Assembly: GCA_026991065.1 (NCBI GenBank)
Contig: JALXCG010000428.1
Span: 1-5,994, forward strand
Length of the DNA: 5,994 nucleotides
Direction: 5' to 3'
Source: JALXCG01 sp026991065 [NCBI: Gemmatimonadota bacterium]
GTDB taxonomy: Bacteria; GCA-2686955
Position 1 is the first letter of the stretch. The number at the start of each line of letters is the position of its first letter. A program made the position numbers and the translations under genes. Shown here one piece after another: positions 1-5,994 of the stretch. The notes beneath the pieces were generated by a model. The model had not been told where the DNA came from, searched no databases, and saw only the letters and a program-made list of their open reading frames with translations.

Positions 1-1087
1 CCACCACGATGGCGGCGAGGTAGTCCTGTGTCGGATCGGCGCCGGTCAGTGCGGGAGTCCGGACCAGGGCCGAGCGGTGGTCCGCCGCCACGGAGAGGAC
101 CTCCGCCGGGAACACGTCGAGGCCGGTGACACTGAATGCGACCAGCATGTTCGTTGTGAAGCCGCTACCGGCCAGGTTGACGGTCTCACCGCCTGCCTGG
201 GATCCCTGACCTGGTACGACGCCGTAGAGCGCCAGGGGCTCACCCCCTGAGAAGGAGATGGTCAGCGTGGTGGTCGTCGACTGCACCCGGACCCGGATGG
301 AGTAGTTGCTCTGGGTCGCGGAGTAGAAGTGCGCCACGGCCTTTCCGCCAGAGGTGGTGGTGGTCACGCTGAGGGACTGGGTCGACGTGAAGTAGCCCCC
401 TCCATCGCCCGAAAGTACGGAGGCTTCGAACGCCACGCCGGTCCCGTCAGGCGCGACGCTGCCGTTCTTCTGGATGGTCGCGGTCAGGGTGACGGTCTCG
501 CCGACGATCGGTGCCGAGGGATCGGCGGTGAACGACGTGACCGTCCACGTGTCGGTCGGAGGGGTCGGCGCGGCGGGGGCCGCCGAATTGCCGCCGGAGG
601 GCAGCGGGATTCCGGGATGGGCGACGGCGATCCGGTCCCGCGCCACCCCCAGCTCCCCGGCCAGGTTCGCGGTTGAAGCGCTCACCGCGATGACCCGCCG
701 GCAGCGCCGCAGGAGTTGCGCTTCGGCCCAGCGGGCGACCGGAAGCTGCCAGCCGCTGCGCACCAGGTAGTCGGGATGGTGGAGCAGCCCGACCACCGGT
801 CCGAGCGGGCGCAGGACTCCGCGGGCGAGGGGCAGCAGAACCTGCGGATAGGCGCGGCTTTCGAGCAGCAGAAGATCGCTGGAGTGGTGCGCCAGGTTGC
901 GCGCCAACCAGGCGTGGGCGCGCAGCGGGCGGGCCGCGATGCGTGGCCGCGCGTCGGCCACGTAGAGCAGGCGGAGGGTGTGGCCGCGCCGCCGCAACTG
1001 GTCGGCGATCCGATTGTTGTAGACCATGCCGCCGTCGGTGGGGTTGCGAGAGCCGGAGGAGATGAAGGTGATGCGCAATGGGACCAC
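1..1087 (-). CDS. Chimeric ORF, partial: GT4 glycosyltransferase N-terminal half fused to Ig-like and TIG domains
   Basis: The frame is open for 362 codons and runs off the left edge. Residues ~5-165 read as the N-terminal Rossmann domain of a GT4 (GT-B fold) glycosyltransferase. They show the opening strand LRITFISSG, a glycine loop with DGG and VYNN, RRRGHTLRLLYV, LLHHPDYL, and the usual interdomain stretch RRVIAVSAS followed by IAVAHPGIP. The donor-binding C-terminal Rossmann domain should follow but is absent. Instead there is a Pro/Ala linker (~163-180), an Ig-like domain (~180-282, with VGETVTLTATI, GTGVAFEAS and many Thr/Ser), and a TIG/IPT-like domain (~288-362, with GGETVNLAGSGF and LVRTPAL). 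Such domains belong to exported surface proteins, whereas GT4 enzymes are cytoplasmic, and no signal peptide is present. The start is uncertain: GTG at 1087 is chosen, TTG at 1078 is possible, and no good ribosome site is seen. It follows murJ by ~96 bp in the same frame. It could be a real deletion fusion or an assembly join. Confidence 0.7.
   Translation of the reverse strand, partial: MVPLRITFISSGSRNPTDGGMVYNNRIADQLRRRGHTLRLLYVADARPRIAARPLRAHAWLARNLAHHSSDLLLLESRAYPQVLLPLARGVLRPLGPVVGLLHHPDYLVRSGWQLPVARWAEAQLLRRCRRVIAVSASTANLAGELGVARDRIAVAHPGIPLPSGGNSAAPAAPTPPTDTWTVTSFTADPSAPIVGETVTLTATIQKNGSVAPDGTGVAFEASVLSGDGGGYFTSTQSLSVTTTTSGGKAVAHFYSATQSNYSIRVRVQSTTTTLTISFSGGEPLALYGVVPGQGSQAGGETVNLAGSGFTTNMLVAFSVTGLDVFPAEVLSVAADHRSALVRTPALTGADPTQDYLAAIVV
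573..606 (-). other. Fusion junction between glycosyltransferase and Ig-like/TIG sequence
   Basis: Here the reading frame changes from glycosyltransferase (ending HPGIPLPSGG) to surface-protein sequence (starting GGNSAAPAAPTPPTD). No stop or frameshift marks the change. The second part looks like the mature N-terminus of a lipoprotein just after its lipobox cysteine: a small, flexible Ala/Pro/Thr tether before the first beta domain. The cysteine and signal peptide are missing. The exact breakpoint cannot be placed to the base from one sequence. Confidence 0.45.
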
Positions 1088-1183
1088 GGGGTTGTTCGGG
1101 GGATGGTGGGGGGAGAGGGCGCGCGAGAGTTTCCCAGTGTCGCCGCGCGGTGCGGTTGAATGCAAGCCCGTGGGTGGCCGCCA

Positions 1184-2767
1184 CTACCATCCAAGCAGCC
1201 GCCGCCCGCGTGCCCACGCCTGCCACGCCTCATCGACCCGCAGCGCGAGCAGGGCGCCGCTGTAGAGGAGGAGGGCCAGAAGGACGCTGGTGGCAAAACT
1301 GATGGGGGCCGCCCAGCCGGGCAGCAGCGGATCGAAATAGAAGAAGCAGGAGCGTGCGGCGAGCGCGCCGGCGAGGGCCAGCGCGGAGGCCTTGAGGAGC
1401 AACCACCAGACCGACGAGTCCAGGATCGGTCCCAGGCGGCCGCGGAGAATCAGAAAGCTCGCTCCCAGGTTGAGGAGTTCGGCGATCGCGGTCGCCAGCG
1501 CCAGCCCCTGCACGCCCATGGGGCGGGCGAGGGCGATGCTCAGGCCGATGTTCAGGAACATGGTGACGGTGCTGGCCACCACCGGAGTGGTGGTGTCGGC
1601 CAGGGCATGGTAGGTGCGGGAAAAGAGCGTCAGCGGAACCTGGGCGACGAAGACGAAGAGGTAGAACCCCAGGACCGACGCGGTAATGCGGGTGGCCTGG
1701 GCGTCGAAGGCGCCATGCTGAAAGACCACCCGCACCAGCGGCTCGCGCAGGGCAAACATGGTGCAGGCGGCGGGGAGCAGCAGGAGCAGCGTGCCGCGCA
1801 ACGCCAGGCCGAGGAAGCGGGTCAGCGCGGCGTTGTCGTTCGCCGCGGCGAGGGCGCAGATGCGCGGATAGACGGCGGTGGGGATCGACGAGGTGAGCAG
1901 CGCCGCGGGGATGCTCAGCAGCCGCCAGGCGTAGAAGAGGGCGGAGACGCTGCCGGGGTCCATGCTGCTGGCCAGGAAGCGATCGGTGATCAGCCCCAAT
2001 TGCCCCACTGTGGCGGCGCCGACGATCGGCAGCATCAGGCGCTGCGCATTTCGGGTCGAGCGGCGGGCGGCGCGGCGATCGCCCCGCTCCGGCGCCGGGG
2101 CAAGCAGCACGCTGCGGGCGGCGAGCGCGAGAAAGCCCAGGCCGATGAGGTTGGCCGCCAGCAGCCCGAGGGCGATGGCGTCGGTGCCCAGCGAGCGATG
2201 AAAGAGCGTGACCACGGCGATCAGGGTGATGTTGATCAGCACCGGCGTGGCGGCGACCGCCGGGAACCGATACTGCGCGGTCAAGAGCCCGCTCAGCGCT
2301 TTGCGCCCCACCAGGCCGATCCCCAGGGGGGCGAGCAGCACTGTCAGACGGGCGGCGCGGGCGACATCGTCGGCGCCGAATCCGGGAGCCAGCAGCCGCA
2401 CCAGGGACTCGGATGTGGAAGCCTGGAAGATGCAGGCCAGGCCCAGGAGGAGCAGGCCGCGCCAACTGAGCAGGCGGAAGGCGGCGGCCGCGGTGGCTCT
2501 ACCCTTGGAACGGAGGTCGCGGTGCCAGCGGATCACCGCAACGGTCGACGCGCCCTCGCCGAACGAACGCTCCAGGAAAGCCGGAATCGTCTGGGCGACG
2601 AAAAACGCGTCCATCAGATGGCCGGCGCCGAAGAAGTGGGCGTAGAGGATCTCGCGCAGGAAGCCGAGCAGGCGGGAGGTCAGATTGCCCATCAGCAGTT
2701 GGGCCGCGCTCCGCCCCACGCCCCCAGGAGCCGCCTCCTTCTGCTCGCGCTGCTCCCTACCGGACAT
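1184..2767 (-). CDS. murJ: MurJ/MviN-family lipid-linked glycan flippase
   Basis: A 527-residue inner-membrane protein of the MOP superfamily, matching the usual MurJ length (~510-530), with about 14 hydrophobic segments. Family hallmarks include SRLLGFLRE (31-39), MDAFFVAQTIP (52-62), FGEGAS (69-74), LFYAWRL (277-283), REPLVRVVFQHGAFDAQATR (341-360) and RTYHALADTTTPV (384-396). MurJ flips lipid II; relatives in polysaccharide loci probably flip other undecaprenyl-linked units, and the place behind wzz and a Wzy/WaaL-like gene suggests that here. Against E. coli MurJ, R18, R24, D39, R53, E57 and R270 are kept as R32, R38, D53, R67, E71 and R282. The cavity residue R52 is Glu66 and D269 is Trp281. 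The ATG at 2767 is preferred, with a weak GAAGG 11 bases upstream at 2779-2783. An in-frame GTG at 2845 would add 26 basic residues. The TAG stop is at 1184-1186. The family call is firm; the substrate is not. Confidence 0.9.
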   Translation of the reverse strand: MSGREQREQKEAAPGGVGRSAAQLLMGNLTSRLLGFLREILYAHFFGAGHLMDAFFVAQTIPAFLERSFGEGASTVAVIRWHRDLRSKGRATAAAAFRLLSWRGLLLLGLACIFQASTSESLVRLLAPGFGADDVARAARLTVLLAPLGIGLVGRKALSGLLTAQYRFPAVAATPVLINITLIAVVTLFHRSLGTDAIALGLLAANLIGLGFLALAARSVLLAPAPERGDRRAARRSTRNAQRLMLPIVGAATVGQLGLITDRFLASSMDPGSVSALFYAWRLLSIPAALLTSSIPTAVYPRICALAAANDNAALTRFLGLALRGTLLLLLPAACTMFALREPLVRVVFQHGAFDAQATRITASVLGFYLFVFVAQVPLTLFSRTYHALADTTTPVVASTVTMFLNIGLSIALARPMGVQGLALATAIAELLNLGASFLILRGRLGPILDSSVWWLLLKASALALAGALAARSCFFYFDPLLPGWAAPISFATSVLLALLLYSGALLALRVDEAWQAWARGRRLLGW

Positions 2768-2893
2768 GGCGCGCCGTGCCTTCGCCGCGGTCCGCCGCTG
2801 CAGTCCCCAGCGGATGAGAGCCGCGGCGCTGTGCCTGCGGCCCACCGTGCCGCCGGCGCGGTCCTGGACCCGGATGCCCGGGGGAAAGTTGGC

Positions 2894-4120
2894 TCATGAC
2901 TCCGACTCGGCTGTGGGCAGGGTACTCCGGCGAGTCAGCACCAGGATGGCCACGATGGAGTAGAAACTGTCCCCCAGATGGCCGACGCCGATGAAATAGC
3001 CATTCTCGAAGAAGGCCCGCACCAGGGAGCCGATCACGGTTGCCAGGCAGGCCAACTCCAGTGGGGTCCAGCCGCTGCGACCCGGCCGCAGGGCCGCGGC
3101 CACCAGGCGCCGGCCACGGCCGATGAGGTAGCAGAAGAGCGCGAAGATCAGGGCCGCCATCGGCACCCCCATCTCCGCTGCTTTGTGGATAAAGAGATTG
3201 TGCGCGCCGTGCGCTTGCTGCACGGTGAAGGGGCTGGTGGCCGGCAGGAAGTTCCACTTGTAGTGGTCGTAGAGTCCCGGGCCGACGCCGGTGAAAGGAT
3301 GGCCGTCGATGATCCGCAAACCGGTGAGCCACAGATGCCCCCGGCCGGTGGTGCCCGACTCCAGGCGCAGAATCATCTGCAAATCGTCGAGCCCGTGAAT
3401 GGAGAGCAGCGCCAGCAGGAGAAGCGTGACTGCCGCGGCTCCTCCCAGGAGCAAGCCGGGGCCGCGCCGGCGCCAGACCCAGAGGCCGCCGAGGAGGAGG
3501 CCGGAGATGCCGACCGCGAGCCAGGCGGAGCGCGAGGCGGTGAGCAGCAGGGCCACCCCCATCAGCAGGATGCCGATGAGCCGGCTGGGTTTGGCCGAGT
3601 CGAAAAGGAACTCCGCCGCGAGCATGGGAATCGGCAGGATCAGTGGCAGCGCGGCCGAGTTGCGGTTGATTCCCAGGAGCGGGCTTTTCTGCACGAATGT
3701 GGCCGGGTCGAGCAGGCTGGCGCCCGAGCGTAGTGTTTCGAGCAGGATAACGGCGGCATAGAGAACTCCGCCGGCCACAATCGCCGAACCGAAAGTTTTC
3801 AGTCGATCACGGTCGTCGATCAGTGAGTTGATGGAGACAAACGAAGCGACGAAACAGTAGTAGCTGACGCTGGCTTTGACACTGATCTCGGGACTGCGGG
3901 AGAGCGCCGTGGCGATCGCCATCCAGAGCGCGAAGGCGAAGAGCCAGATGGAGAGGGTGCGATCCAGGACGGGCAGCGACCCTTCGCGCCCCACCGCGCG
4001 CAGCAGTGCATAGGCCAGCAGCAACACCGCCACGAGGTTGGCGGCCACGCGCGGCTCCACTCCCGCCGCGGTGGCCATCGGTGCGAAAAAGGGAAAGACA
4101 ACCCCGATGAGTTGGAGCAT
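2894..4120 (-). CDS. O-antigen ligase/polymerase (Wzy_C, WaaL-like) membrane protein
   Basis: A 408-residue polytopic membrane protein with about 11-12 hydrophobic segments, typical of the O-antigen ligase/Wzy superfamily. It carries the family core: TASRSAWLAVG (194-204), then a large periplasmic loop with TGRGHLW (258-264), GHPFTGVGPGLYDHY (273-287) and AHGAHNLFIHKAAEMG (303-318). The loop Arg and His residues correspond to those needed in this family. Such enzymes either polymerise lipid-linked repeat units (Wzy) or move glycan to lipid A or another acceptor (WaaL); sequence alone does not separate these. Adjacent wzz-like and flippase genes favour polymerase. The ATG at 4120 lies five bases beyond the wzz stop, so translation is probably coupled. 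A start further upstream at 4252 would only read antisense-like frame inside wzz. No strong Shine-Dalgarno sequence is seen. The TGA stop is at 2894-2896. Confidence 0.87.
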   Translation of the reverse strand: MLQLIGVVFPFFAPMATAAGVEPRVAANLVAVLLLAYALLRAVGREGSLPVLDRTLSIWLFAFALWMAIATALSRSPEISVKASVSYYCFVASFVSINSLIDDRDRLKTFGSAIVAGGVLYAAVILLETLRSGASLLDPATFVQKSPLLGINRNSAALPLILPIPMLAAEFLFDSAKPSRLIGILLMGVALLLTASRSAWLAVGISGLLLGGLWVWRRRGPGLLLGGAAAVTLLLLALLSIHGLDDLQMILRLESGTTGRGHLWLTGLRIIDGHPFTGVGPGLYDHYKWNFLPATSPFTVQQAHGAHNLFIHKAAEMGVPMAALIFALFCYLIGRGRRLVAAALRPGRSGWTPLELACLATVIGSLVRAFFENGYFIGVGHLGDSFYSIVAILVLTRRSTLPTAESES

Positions 4121-4125
4121 TGCCG

Positions 4126-5328
4126 CTACTCGCGTTGGGAGCGCAGCGGCAGGTGGAAGACACGCAGTGCGGCCATCCATCTCTCGTAGAGTTCGGGGTC
4201 GGCGCGCTGGGCCAGCTTCAGGCGCTCCTGGAAGAAGAACCGCATGAACCACAGCAACTGGTAGATGAGACAGAGGGCGACGACCACGTAGGCGCGTTTC
4301 GGCTTGTATTTCTTGTCGGGCGTGTAGCCGCGGTCGACCACCCGCAGCCGCGGCTGGTCATAGCCGCTCTCCATCCTTGCGATGGTCAGTTGCGGGATCA
4401 GTTGCTCCAGCAGGGCCTGCTGGATGGAGGATTGCAGGAAGAGGTCGAAATACTCGCGCTGCAGGCCCGGCAGCTCGCTGATCGCGACGCCGGCGCCGCC
4501 CTGGTCGCCATGCAGGAGTTCATCGCGCGCCCGGGTCGCCTCCTCCAGCTTGGTTTCCGCGAGGCGCCGCAGCGGATGTTCCGGCCCGTAGAGCTTCTCC
4601 ACCAGGTGGGCCTGGATCGCGGCGCCGGCCACGGTTGCTTCCGCTTGCGCCAGATTGTTGGCCATGCCTTGTACTTGCGGCTCGAGGGCGAAGATCCCGG
4701 TGCGCTGACTGAACTCCTCCAGCGCCTGAACAGCGGCTGCGTAGTGACCGCGGGTCTCCTCCACCACCTCCTGCAGATAGGTCCCGCGGGCGAGCGCGCC
4801 GTGCCGCGTGATCTCTATCACCTGCTCCTGCAGCCGGTCGAGCAGGAAGTTGACCATGTTGGCCGCCCGTTCCGGCTCATCATCTTCGACCGCGATGGTC
4901 AGGGAGACAATGCGGATCGAGGCGATGCCGCCCTCGATCTCCGGCTCCACGCTGAGCGTGTTGCGCAGGGTGAGGAAGGTGTCTTCCAGGTTGTTCTTGC
5001 CGTAGACCGTTTGCAGGTCGAATTCATCGATCAACGGCCGCCGCAGGGCGCGGGAGTTCAGCAGCGTGATCAGCTCGCGGGCATCCACCGAGCTGCCCGA
5101 CCAGGTGGCCGGCAGCGAGACCCCCCCGAGCAGGCTCAGGTAGCCGCCGCCGGAAGTGCCCTCCGCCGGCAGGACGGTGACGAAGGAGCGGTAGCTCTTG
5201 GGCAGGACCAGACTGATGCCGATGGCCACGATGCCGGCGATGATCGAGCCGATGAGCCAACTCCAACGCCGCTCCGCGAAGGCCGCCAGGAGGCCGAGAA
5301 GGTCGAGGTTCTGGGGGGTGGTTTTCAT
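4126..5328 (-). CDS. Wzz-like polysaccharide chain-length determinant (PCP), no kinase domain
   Basis: A 400-residue inner-membrane protein with the two-helix plan of polysaccharide co-polymerases. It has a short cytoplasmic N-terminus with NLDLLGLLAAF, TM1 at ~24-43, and the early periplasmic signature LPKSYRSFVTVLPAE (42-56). A long, largely helical and coiled-coil periplasmic part (~150-325) follows, with LQREYFDLFLQSS (289-301). The proline-containing approach to TM2 is VVDRGYTPDKKYKPKR (330-345), TM2 is ~346-366, and a basic cytoplasmic tail follows. These proteins oligomerise around the polymerase and set glycan length. There is no Walker-type tyrosine-kinase domain, so it resembles Wzz or kinase-less PCP proteins; a separate BY-kinase could lie elsewhere. 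The ATG at 5328 is preferred because the family N-terminus starts there. A TTG at 5385, with AAGG four bases upstream, would add 19 unlikely residues. It is the first gene behind the promoter near 5430, and its TAG stop is five bases from the next ATG. Confidence 0.9.
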   Translation of the reverse strand: MKTTPQNLDLLGLLAAFAERRWSWLIGSIIAGIVAIGISLVLPKSYRSFVTVLPAEGTSGGGYLSLLGGVSLPATWSGSSVDARELITLLNSRALRRPLIDEFDLQTVYGKNNLEDTFLTLRNTLSVEPEIEGGIASIRIVSLTIAVEDDEPERAANMVNFLLDRLQEQVIEITRHGALARGTYLQEVVEETRGHYAAAVQALEEFSQRTGIFALEPQVQGMANNLAQAEATVAGAAIQAHLVEKLYGPEHPLRRLAETKLEEATRARDELLHGDQGGAGVAISELPGLQREYFDLFLQSSIQQALLEQLIPQLTIARMESGYDQPRLRVVDRGYTPDKKYKPKRAYVVVALCLIYQLLWFMRFFFQERLKLAQRADPELYERWMAALRVFHLPLRSQRE

Positions 5329-5348
5329 GGACGGGAATTCTGCGCGGC

Positions 5349-5376
5349 GGGGAGAGAGGTGGGATGGGGAGGAGGA
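5349..5376 (-). other. Pyrimidine-rich tract in the wzz leader
   Basis: Read on the minus strand, this 28-base stretch is C and T except for two A residues, and lies in the predicted untranslated leader between the promoter and the wzz ATG. No purine-rich ribosome site follows it before the ATG at 5328. It may keep the leader unstructured or be a protein-binding or Rho-type site, but nothing in the sequence decides this. Confidence 0.25.
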
Positions 5377-5426
5377 TGCACGCAACGGACCTTGGCTTTC
5401 CCCGGCAAGGCTCGAAAGACAAGCAG

Positions 5427-5455
5427 AGACTAGGAACCAGAGAGTTGAGTGTCAA
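5427..5455 (-). promoter_or_regulatory. Sigma70-type promoter for the wzz-wzy-murJ unit
   Basis: On the minus strand a perfect -35 box, TTGACA (5455-5450), is followed by a 17-base spacer and TAGTCT (5432-5427), which keeps the first two bases and final T of the -10 consensus. Transcription would start near 5420, leaving a leader of about 90 bases before the wzz ATG. The position in the gap ahead of four co-oriented frames supports it. The weak -10 is the main doubt. Confidence 0.55.
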
Positions 5456-5481
5456 CCGGCACCGGTCGGGAGATTCCCCCA

Positions 5482-5607
5482 GATTCATTCCCCCAAAGGA
5501 TCGTGCTTTGCGGCGTGGGCGACCTCAAGGACTACCGGATCCACGCTTCCAGCGAGAAAGAGATCATTACCGGCGGCTCCTGCTTCAACATCAAGGCGAA
5601 CTTGCGG
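5482..5607 (+). pseudogene. Internal fragment of an AAA/STAND-type ATPase gene
   Basis: About 42 codons on the plus strand, opposite to all neighbours, read like the core of a large family of P-loop 'ATP-binding proteins' common in Cyanobacteria, Chloroflexi and Acidobacteriota. The visible motifs are SFPQRIVLCGVGDLKDYRI, then HASSEKEI, then TGGSCFNIKANLR. In intact relatives this stretch follows the Walker B region and leads into a SLRLGDF-like motif. Here the similarity stops at 5607 and the frame reaches a stop at 5638 after unrelated residues. No Walker A or B sequence or C-terminal domain is present, and full proteins of this kind are several hundred residues long. A GTG at 5449 opens the same frame (63 codons), but it overlaps the minus-strand promoter and is probably accidental. 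I read it as the remnant of a gene lost by deletion or insertion. The family match is from memory of its motifs, so confidence is moderate. Confidence 0.5.
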
Positions 5608-5734
5608 GCCGCGCGGCGCTACCCGCCCCGGGACGGGTGATCGAGGTGGGGCGGACGGAGCAGGCAGCGTGGTCGGTGCAGGCTGTCGGCAAGCAGTCAC
5701 TCGATCTCAGCCGGCCTCCGCTCCGCGATCACCT
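5608..5734. other. Intergenic stretch with no recognisable gene
   Basis: Between the end of the ATPase relic and the stop of the right-hand glycosyltransferase no gene can be supported. A minus-strand frame from 5774 to a stop at 5697 reads like the tail of some protein (TVQVKVIAERRPAEIE) but has no start. No clear hairpin with a T-run, and so no intrinsic terminator, was seen for the glycosyltransferase. Confidence 0.4.
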
Positions 5735-5994
5735 TCACCTGCACTGTCTCGGATGCGTCGCCGCAGGTGAAGCGCAGAGTTCCGCATAGAGCGCGGCCAG
5801 CGCGCGCGCCTGGTGGGCGGCGCTGTAGCGACTGCGCAGTGCCTCGCGCGCGCCGGCCACCAGACGCGCGCGCAATTCGGCGGAGCGCAGCAGGCGGCGG
5901 ATCGCATCGGCCAGGGCGACCGGATCGCGCGGCGTCACCAGCACTCCGCTGACCTCCTCCTCGATTACCTCGATCAGGCCGCCGGTGCGGGCGG
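5735..5994 (-). CDS. GT4-family glycosyltransferase, C-terminal part (partial)
   Basis: The last 85 residues of a protein entering from the right edge. They match the end of the donor-binding Rossmann domain of GT4 (RfaB/WcaL-type) retaining glycosyltransferases. TGGLIEVIEEEVSGVLV is the nucleotide-sugar loop, then TPRDPVALADAIRRLL, then helical AELRARLVAGARE, then a Tyr-Ser stretch and LAALYAEL, where such proteins usually finish. The catalytic E-x7-E motif would lie beyond the window. The enzyme would add one sugar to the lipid-linked repeat unit at the cytoplasmic face of the membrane. The last dozen residues (CASPAATHPRQCR) have no family character and may come from sequence joined on near 5775. 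The TGA stop is at 5735-5737. It is co-oriented with wzz but separated by ~400 bp and a promoter. Confidence 0.85.
   Translation of the reverse strand, partial: ARTGGLIEVIEEEVSGVLVTPRDPVALADAIRRLLRSAELRARLVAGAREALRSRYSAAHQARALAALYAELCASPAATHPRQCR

Follow-up and report, generated by a model that had tools for sequence, protein, structure and literature searches.

The left end of contig C428 raises the question of whether a GT4 glycosyltransferase domain has been fused to Ig-like and TIG domains in a single protein, or whether two genes have been joined that do not belong together. The window analysed is the whole of this contig (5,994 bp), one of 902 contigs in a draft genome (the host) that is 83.8% complete and, judged from its fragmentation, is probably itself metagenome-assembled. 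A minus-strand frame of 388 residues (2-1165) runs without a stop codon and reaches the contig end at position 2, and the join within it lies about 600 bp from that end. The initial annotation described an in-frame GT4 N-terminal domain followed by Ig and TIG domains, and this description is borne out by the open frame, by a PF13439 match and by the Ig/TIG-like sequence that comes after it. The apparent fusion is nevertheless most likely an assembly artefact that joins unrelated genes of different bacteria, and not a new protein.

GT4 glycosyltransferases have a GT-B fold and a two-domain layout, PF13439 and PF00534. In the 388-residue frame, Glyco_transf_4 (PF13439) was matched over residues 45-187 (E 6.3e-12), and a search with window 599-1087 alone gave E 4.2e-13; both matches cover positions 3-167 of the 170 in the profile. 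The GT4 part of the frame (599-1087) ends at ...HPGIPLP. The window thus resembles GT4 glycosyltransferases in having an N-terminal domain complete to profile position 167, and differs from them in that no PF00534 or PF13692 match follows the join. No Glycos_transf_1 or other PF00534-like C-terminal domain was found in the 388-residue frame at E ≤ 1.

For the other half, relatives were sought with a set of six short peptide patterns in a single genome of each species, a scan that reaches close relatives only. A single relative was found, on contig L004 of a metagenome-assembled genome (G098) from Thermoanaerobaculia, a class of Acidobacteriota in the NCBI taxonomy. The L004 gene (7905-10178) encodes a lipoprotein of 757 residues, with a signal peptide that by eye ends in MAGC (Cys19), TIG matches in five stretches (E 2.8e-36) and a C-terminal ASH/Hydin-like domain. 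The left part of the window is 80% identical to it in protein sequence (Table 1), with dN 0.14 and dS 1.01, and the match runs from L004 residue 20, the first after the lipobox cysteine. In the window itself, TIG scores 14 and 15.3 bits, short of the Pfam cut-off of 20.9, and no Pfam match supports the Ig part, so that both assignments come from the alignment with the full-length L004 relative. The L004 lipoprotein differs from the window protein in possessing the signal peptide, the lipobox cysteine, all five TIG stretches and the ASH/Hydin-like C-terminus, and in having no GT4 domain. The left part of the window is cut off by the contig end, and neither a signal peptide nor a lipobox cysteine is present in the window. 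Their absence had been noted earlier, correctly, and taken as a sign that two genes were joined.

Within the host, no second close copy of either half was found elsewhere, and the only other match to the lipoprotein was a weak TIG match on contig C595 (37% identity, E 5.9e-4). Neither half was detected at E ≤ 1e-3 in G001, the one relative of the host in the collection, and the whole window protein had no match among phage records.

The position of the join was narrowed from both sides. The last residue of the GT4 profile match lies at about 604. The dense protein match to L004 begins at about 580 and the blastn DNA match to G098 at 582, which places the join somewhere in 580-604. An ungapped match to L004 in the same frame extends back to 598, although its first six residues are weak (2/6). 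Over the 120 bases upstream of 598, identity to L004 is 30%, which is background.

Table 1 Features at the apparent fusion in the window
Feature	Position	Strand	Evidence
pilQ-linked Ig/TIG lipoprotein gene segment (left part)	2..598	-	159/199 residues and 75% of bases identical to L004:7962-8558
5' part of GT4-family glycosyltransferase gene, N-terminal domain only (right part)	599..1087	-	PF13439; composition and codon usage in the host range
Joining stretch of two unrelated sequences	580..604	.	End of GT4 profile match; starts of DNA and protein matches

Matches to the query P0001 at E ≤ 1e-3 are present in 63 of the 148 genomes of the class to which G098 belongs, many of them weak. Loci were examined in the 30 best-scoring of these 63 genomes, a selection by score and not a random draw, with the L004 gene among them. 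PilQ is encoded upstream on the same strand in all 30 of these best loci, the PilQ and TIG matches being 634-994 bp apart, and the GT4 half was absent from them at E ≤ 0.01 within flanks of about 1.5 kb or less. In the window, a GT4 gene stands where pilQ would be expected upstream. In local tblastn searches of the same loci, no best match began before query residue 156 (30/30), the join being at about residue 159. A few alignments start earlier in the class-wide search of 148 genomes, such as those of L049 (residue 130) and L051 (residue 119), and most of one match, G183:C22 (residues 103-169, E 7.8e-4), falls in the GT4 half. A lipobox-like cysteine was seen by eye upstream of or at the match start in 28 of the 30 loci; L033 shows none, and the printed stretch of L051 stops short of that site.

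Composition also changes along the contig. With a third-order Markov score, none of 314 host windows (drawn from 19 contigs) scored as low as 1-598, and 56 of 473 G098 windows scored as high, placing this segment in the upper 12% for G098. Synonymous codon usage, which removes protein make-up from the comparison, gave a similar picture: only 1 of 202 host chunks (0.005) had a score as low as that of the TIG part, and among G098 chunks the TIG part ranks mid-range (0.489). On the same host-chunk ranking the GT4 part stands at 0.218, MurJ at 18%, the ligase at 25% and Wzz at 8%. Bins of 599-5887 fell between the 2nd and 51st percentiles of host windows, three of the nine in the lowest 2-3%; the host set for this comparison also contained one contig without readable bases. 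The segment 599-5994 is within the host range in the bin and codon tests, partly at its edge. Two observations count against a chimera: the best single change point in composition is at 665, some 70 bases from the homology break, and GC3 is nearly equal in the two halves (0.86 and 0.89).

Beyond the GT4 gene, the minus strand of the window carries a polysaccharide cluster (1184-5385) comprising a MurJ-type flippase (PF03023), an O-antigen ligase (PF04932) and Wzz (PF02706). The collection holds two genomes in the phylum of the host against 148 in the class of G098, from which the host and G098 would belong to different phyla. The best PilQ-like protein of the host is 32% identical to G098 PilQ (residues 552-831); the corresponding value for the left part of the window and its G098 relative is 80%. 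The MurJ of the contig has only distant matches, the best being 37% identical among 97 other genomes at E ≤ 1e-30, and it was of no help as a lineage marker. It scored 137 bits (32% identity) against G098, 82.7 bits against G001 and 77.9 bits against the second MurJ of the host; at E ≤ 1e-40 the 148 class genomes gave an empty listing, which carries no weight as absence. For Wzz, weak matches were found in G001 (25%) and at another place in the host (24%), and no match in any of eight Thermoanaerobaculia (G098 and seven high-scoring genomes of the class-wide search). An origin of 599-5994 in the host is supported by composition and left unsettled by homology, and it is made less secure by the MurJ score, which is higher for G098 than for G001 or the host copy, and by the three of nine bins in the lowest 2-3%.

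Homology, gene neighbourhood and composition all switch near one place close to the end of a short contig, as they would in a chimera. The left part has its affinity in a lineage other than that of the right part, for which the host assignment is compositional, and the break between them is sharp. The 5,994-bp contig is thus very probably a cross-phylum chimera, and the join is likely to have been formed in assembly or library preparation and not in a cell. On this explanation, 599-5994 would be a polysaccharide cluster compatible with the host (the GT4 gene, MurJ-type flippase, O-antigen ligase, Wzz and a glycosyltransferase end), and 1-598 would be a piece of the pilQ-linked Ig/TIG lipoprotein gene that a co-occurring member of the Thermoanaerobaculia (Acidobacteriota) carries. 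An assembler or a chimeric read would have joined the two near 598, in frame by chance. In their organisms of origin both genes would be normal: a C-terminal nucleotide-sugar domain would complete the GT4 gene, and the lipoprotein gene would have a signal peptide and lipobox. Since two coding sequences joined on the same strand should stay in frame about one third of the time, the open frame needs no special cause.

PMC8201837 counts misassembly between sources among the known errors of such genomes, and also describes misassemblies as relatively rare beside mis-binning, which counts against a chimera. The window resembles the chimeric contigs described there in its two lineages, its join near a contig end and its fragmented draft genome, and differs from them in that its join is deduced from sequence comparison rather than from read-level proof. 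Of the earlier interpretation, the view that two genes were joined stands, and a misjoin, which it had named as the main alternative, is now favoured. A deletion fusion, or a half-domain put to a new use, is the less favoured reading: homology, synteny and composition all change near 598.

A real fusion is improbable. The host would have gained a Thermoanaerobaculia lipoprotein gene, and recombination inside the GT4 gene would have joined the two. The product would be a GT4 half-domain that carries a periplasmic-type tail and lacks an export signal. Such an event would account for the frame that stays open across the join and for a break that falls, in either gene, close to a domain or processing boundary, which in a chimera is a neat coincidence; both observations count against a chimera. 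Purifying selection on the TIG part, indicated by the dN and dS values, also speaks for a real fusion, but is explained equally well by life in the source organism. A real fusion would need the transfer across phyla of a gene that is pilQ-linked in every one of the 30 best loci, as well as the loss of both the catalytic half of the glycosyltransferase and the export signal; the contig would have to end by chance inside the fused gene, and the foreign composition of the left part also argues against it.

Slightly less probable still is that the whole contig was mis-binned from a third organism in which the lipoprotein gene lies beside a polysaccharide cluster. The lack of a close relative for the contig MurJ and its higher score against G098 than against G001 or the second MurJ of the host are consistent with this, as are the bins at the edge of the host range and the GC content of 606-1087 (0.722), which exceeds that of the 19 readable host contigs sampled (0.606-0.703). 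Against it, composition shifts within the contig near the join, 599-5994 is inside the host range in both composition tests, Wzz matches only the host and G001 among the ten genomes tested, and the fusion itself would still need explaining. Least probable of all is a cross-phylum translocation that fused the GT4 acceptor-binding half-domain to Ig/TIG repeats to make a cytoplasmic, non-catalytic sugar binder. No literature on GT4 glycosyltransferase-TIG domain fusion proteins was found.

Reading the contig as a chimera keeps a false domain architecture out of the catalogue. It also suggests a practical test. When a domain fusion sits close to the end of a contig and its parts are unlike in lineage, in synteny and in composition, it should be regarded as an assembly join.

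The host genome contains 25 matches to PF00534, including a fragment at the right end of the window. On two host contigs, C30 and C816, a headless GT4 gene is cut by a contig end. These contigs have only scattered 12-base words and no 15-base word in common with the GT4 region of the window, so neither can be demonstrated to continue it. Scanning the 25 host PF00534 loci by regular expression for the motif at the end of the N-terminal domain added nothing. DNA searches with window 1-1100 against the host, G001 and G098 (40 candidates scored per genome) returned, beyond the window itself and the G098 lipoprotein gene, only short matches with E ≥ 4.5e-4. Neither a displaced GT4 half nor the join sequence was identified on another host contig end in these searches, of which the DNA search scored 40 of 71 host candidates.

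The fragment at the right end (5735-5992, minus strand; PF00534, E 2.2e-07) belongs to a second GT4-type glycosyltransferase, of which it is the C-terminal end; the gene is cut there by the contig end. It was considered as the other half of the same GT4 gene on a small circle. The profile match starts only at position 124 of 172, so that about 120 or more residues would be absent between the two pieces, and the circle was rejected. A plus-strand open reading frame of 63 residues (5449-5640), with no Pfam match at E ≤ 0.1, lies between the gene for Wzz and that for the glycosyltransferase at the right end.

The source gene of the left part is a better lead than the apparent fusion. Its position beside pilQ in 30/30 of the best Thermoanaerobaculia loci makes the lipoprotein a candidate partner of the type IV pilus secretin, a suggestion that comes from gene order only. 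No literature joining pilQ or the type IV pilus secretin with TIG-domain proteins was found. The Ig/TIG lipoprotein gene lies at most 1 kb downstream of pilQ in L004 (7905-10178) and in L025-L054. In L004, an open reading frame of 187 residues (7325-7888) with no Pfam match at E ≤ 1 is located between pilQ and the lipoprotein gene.
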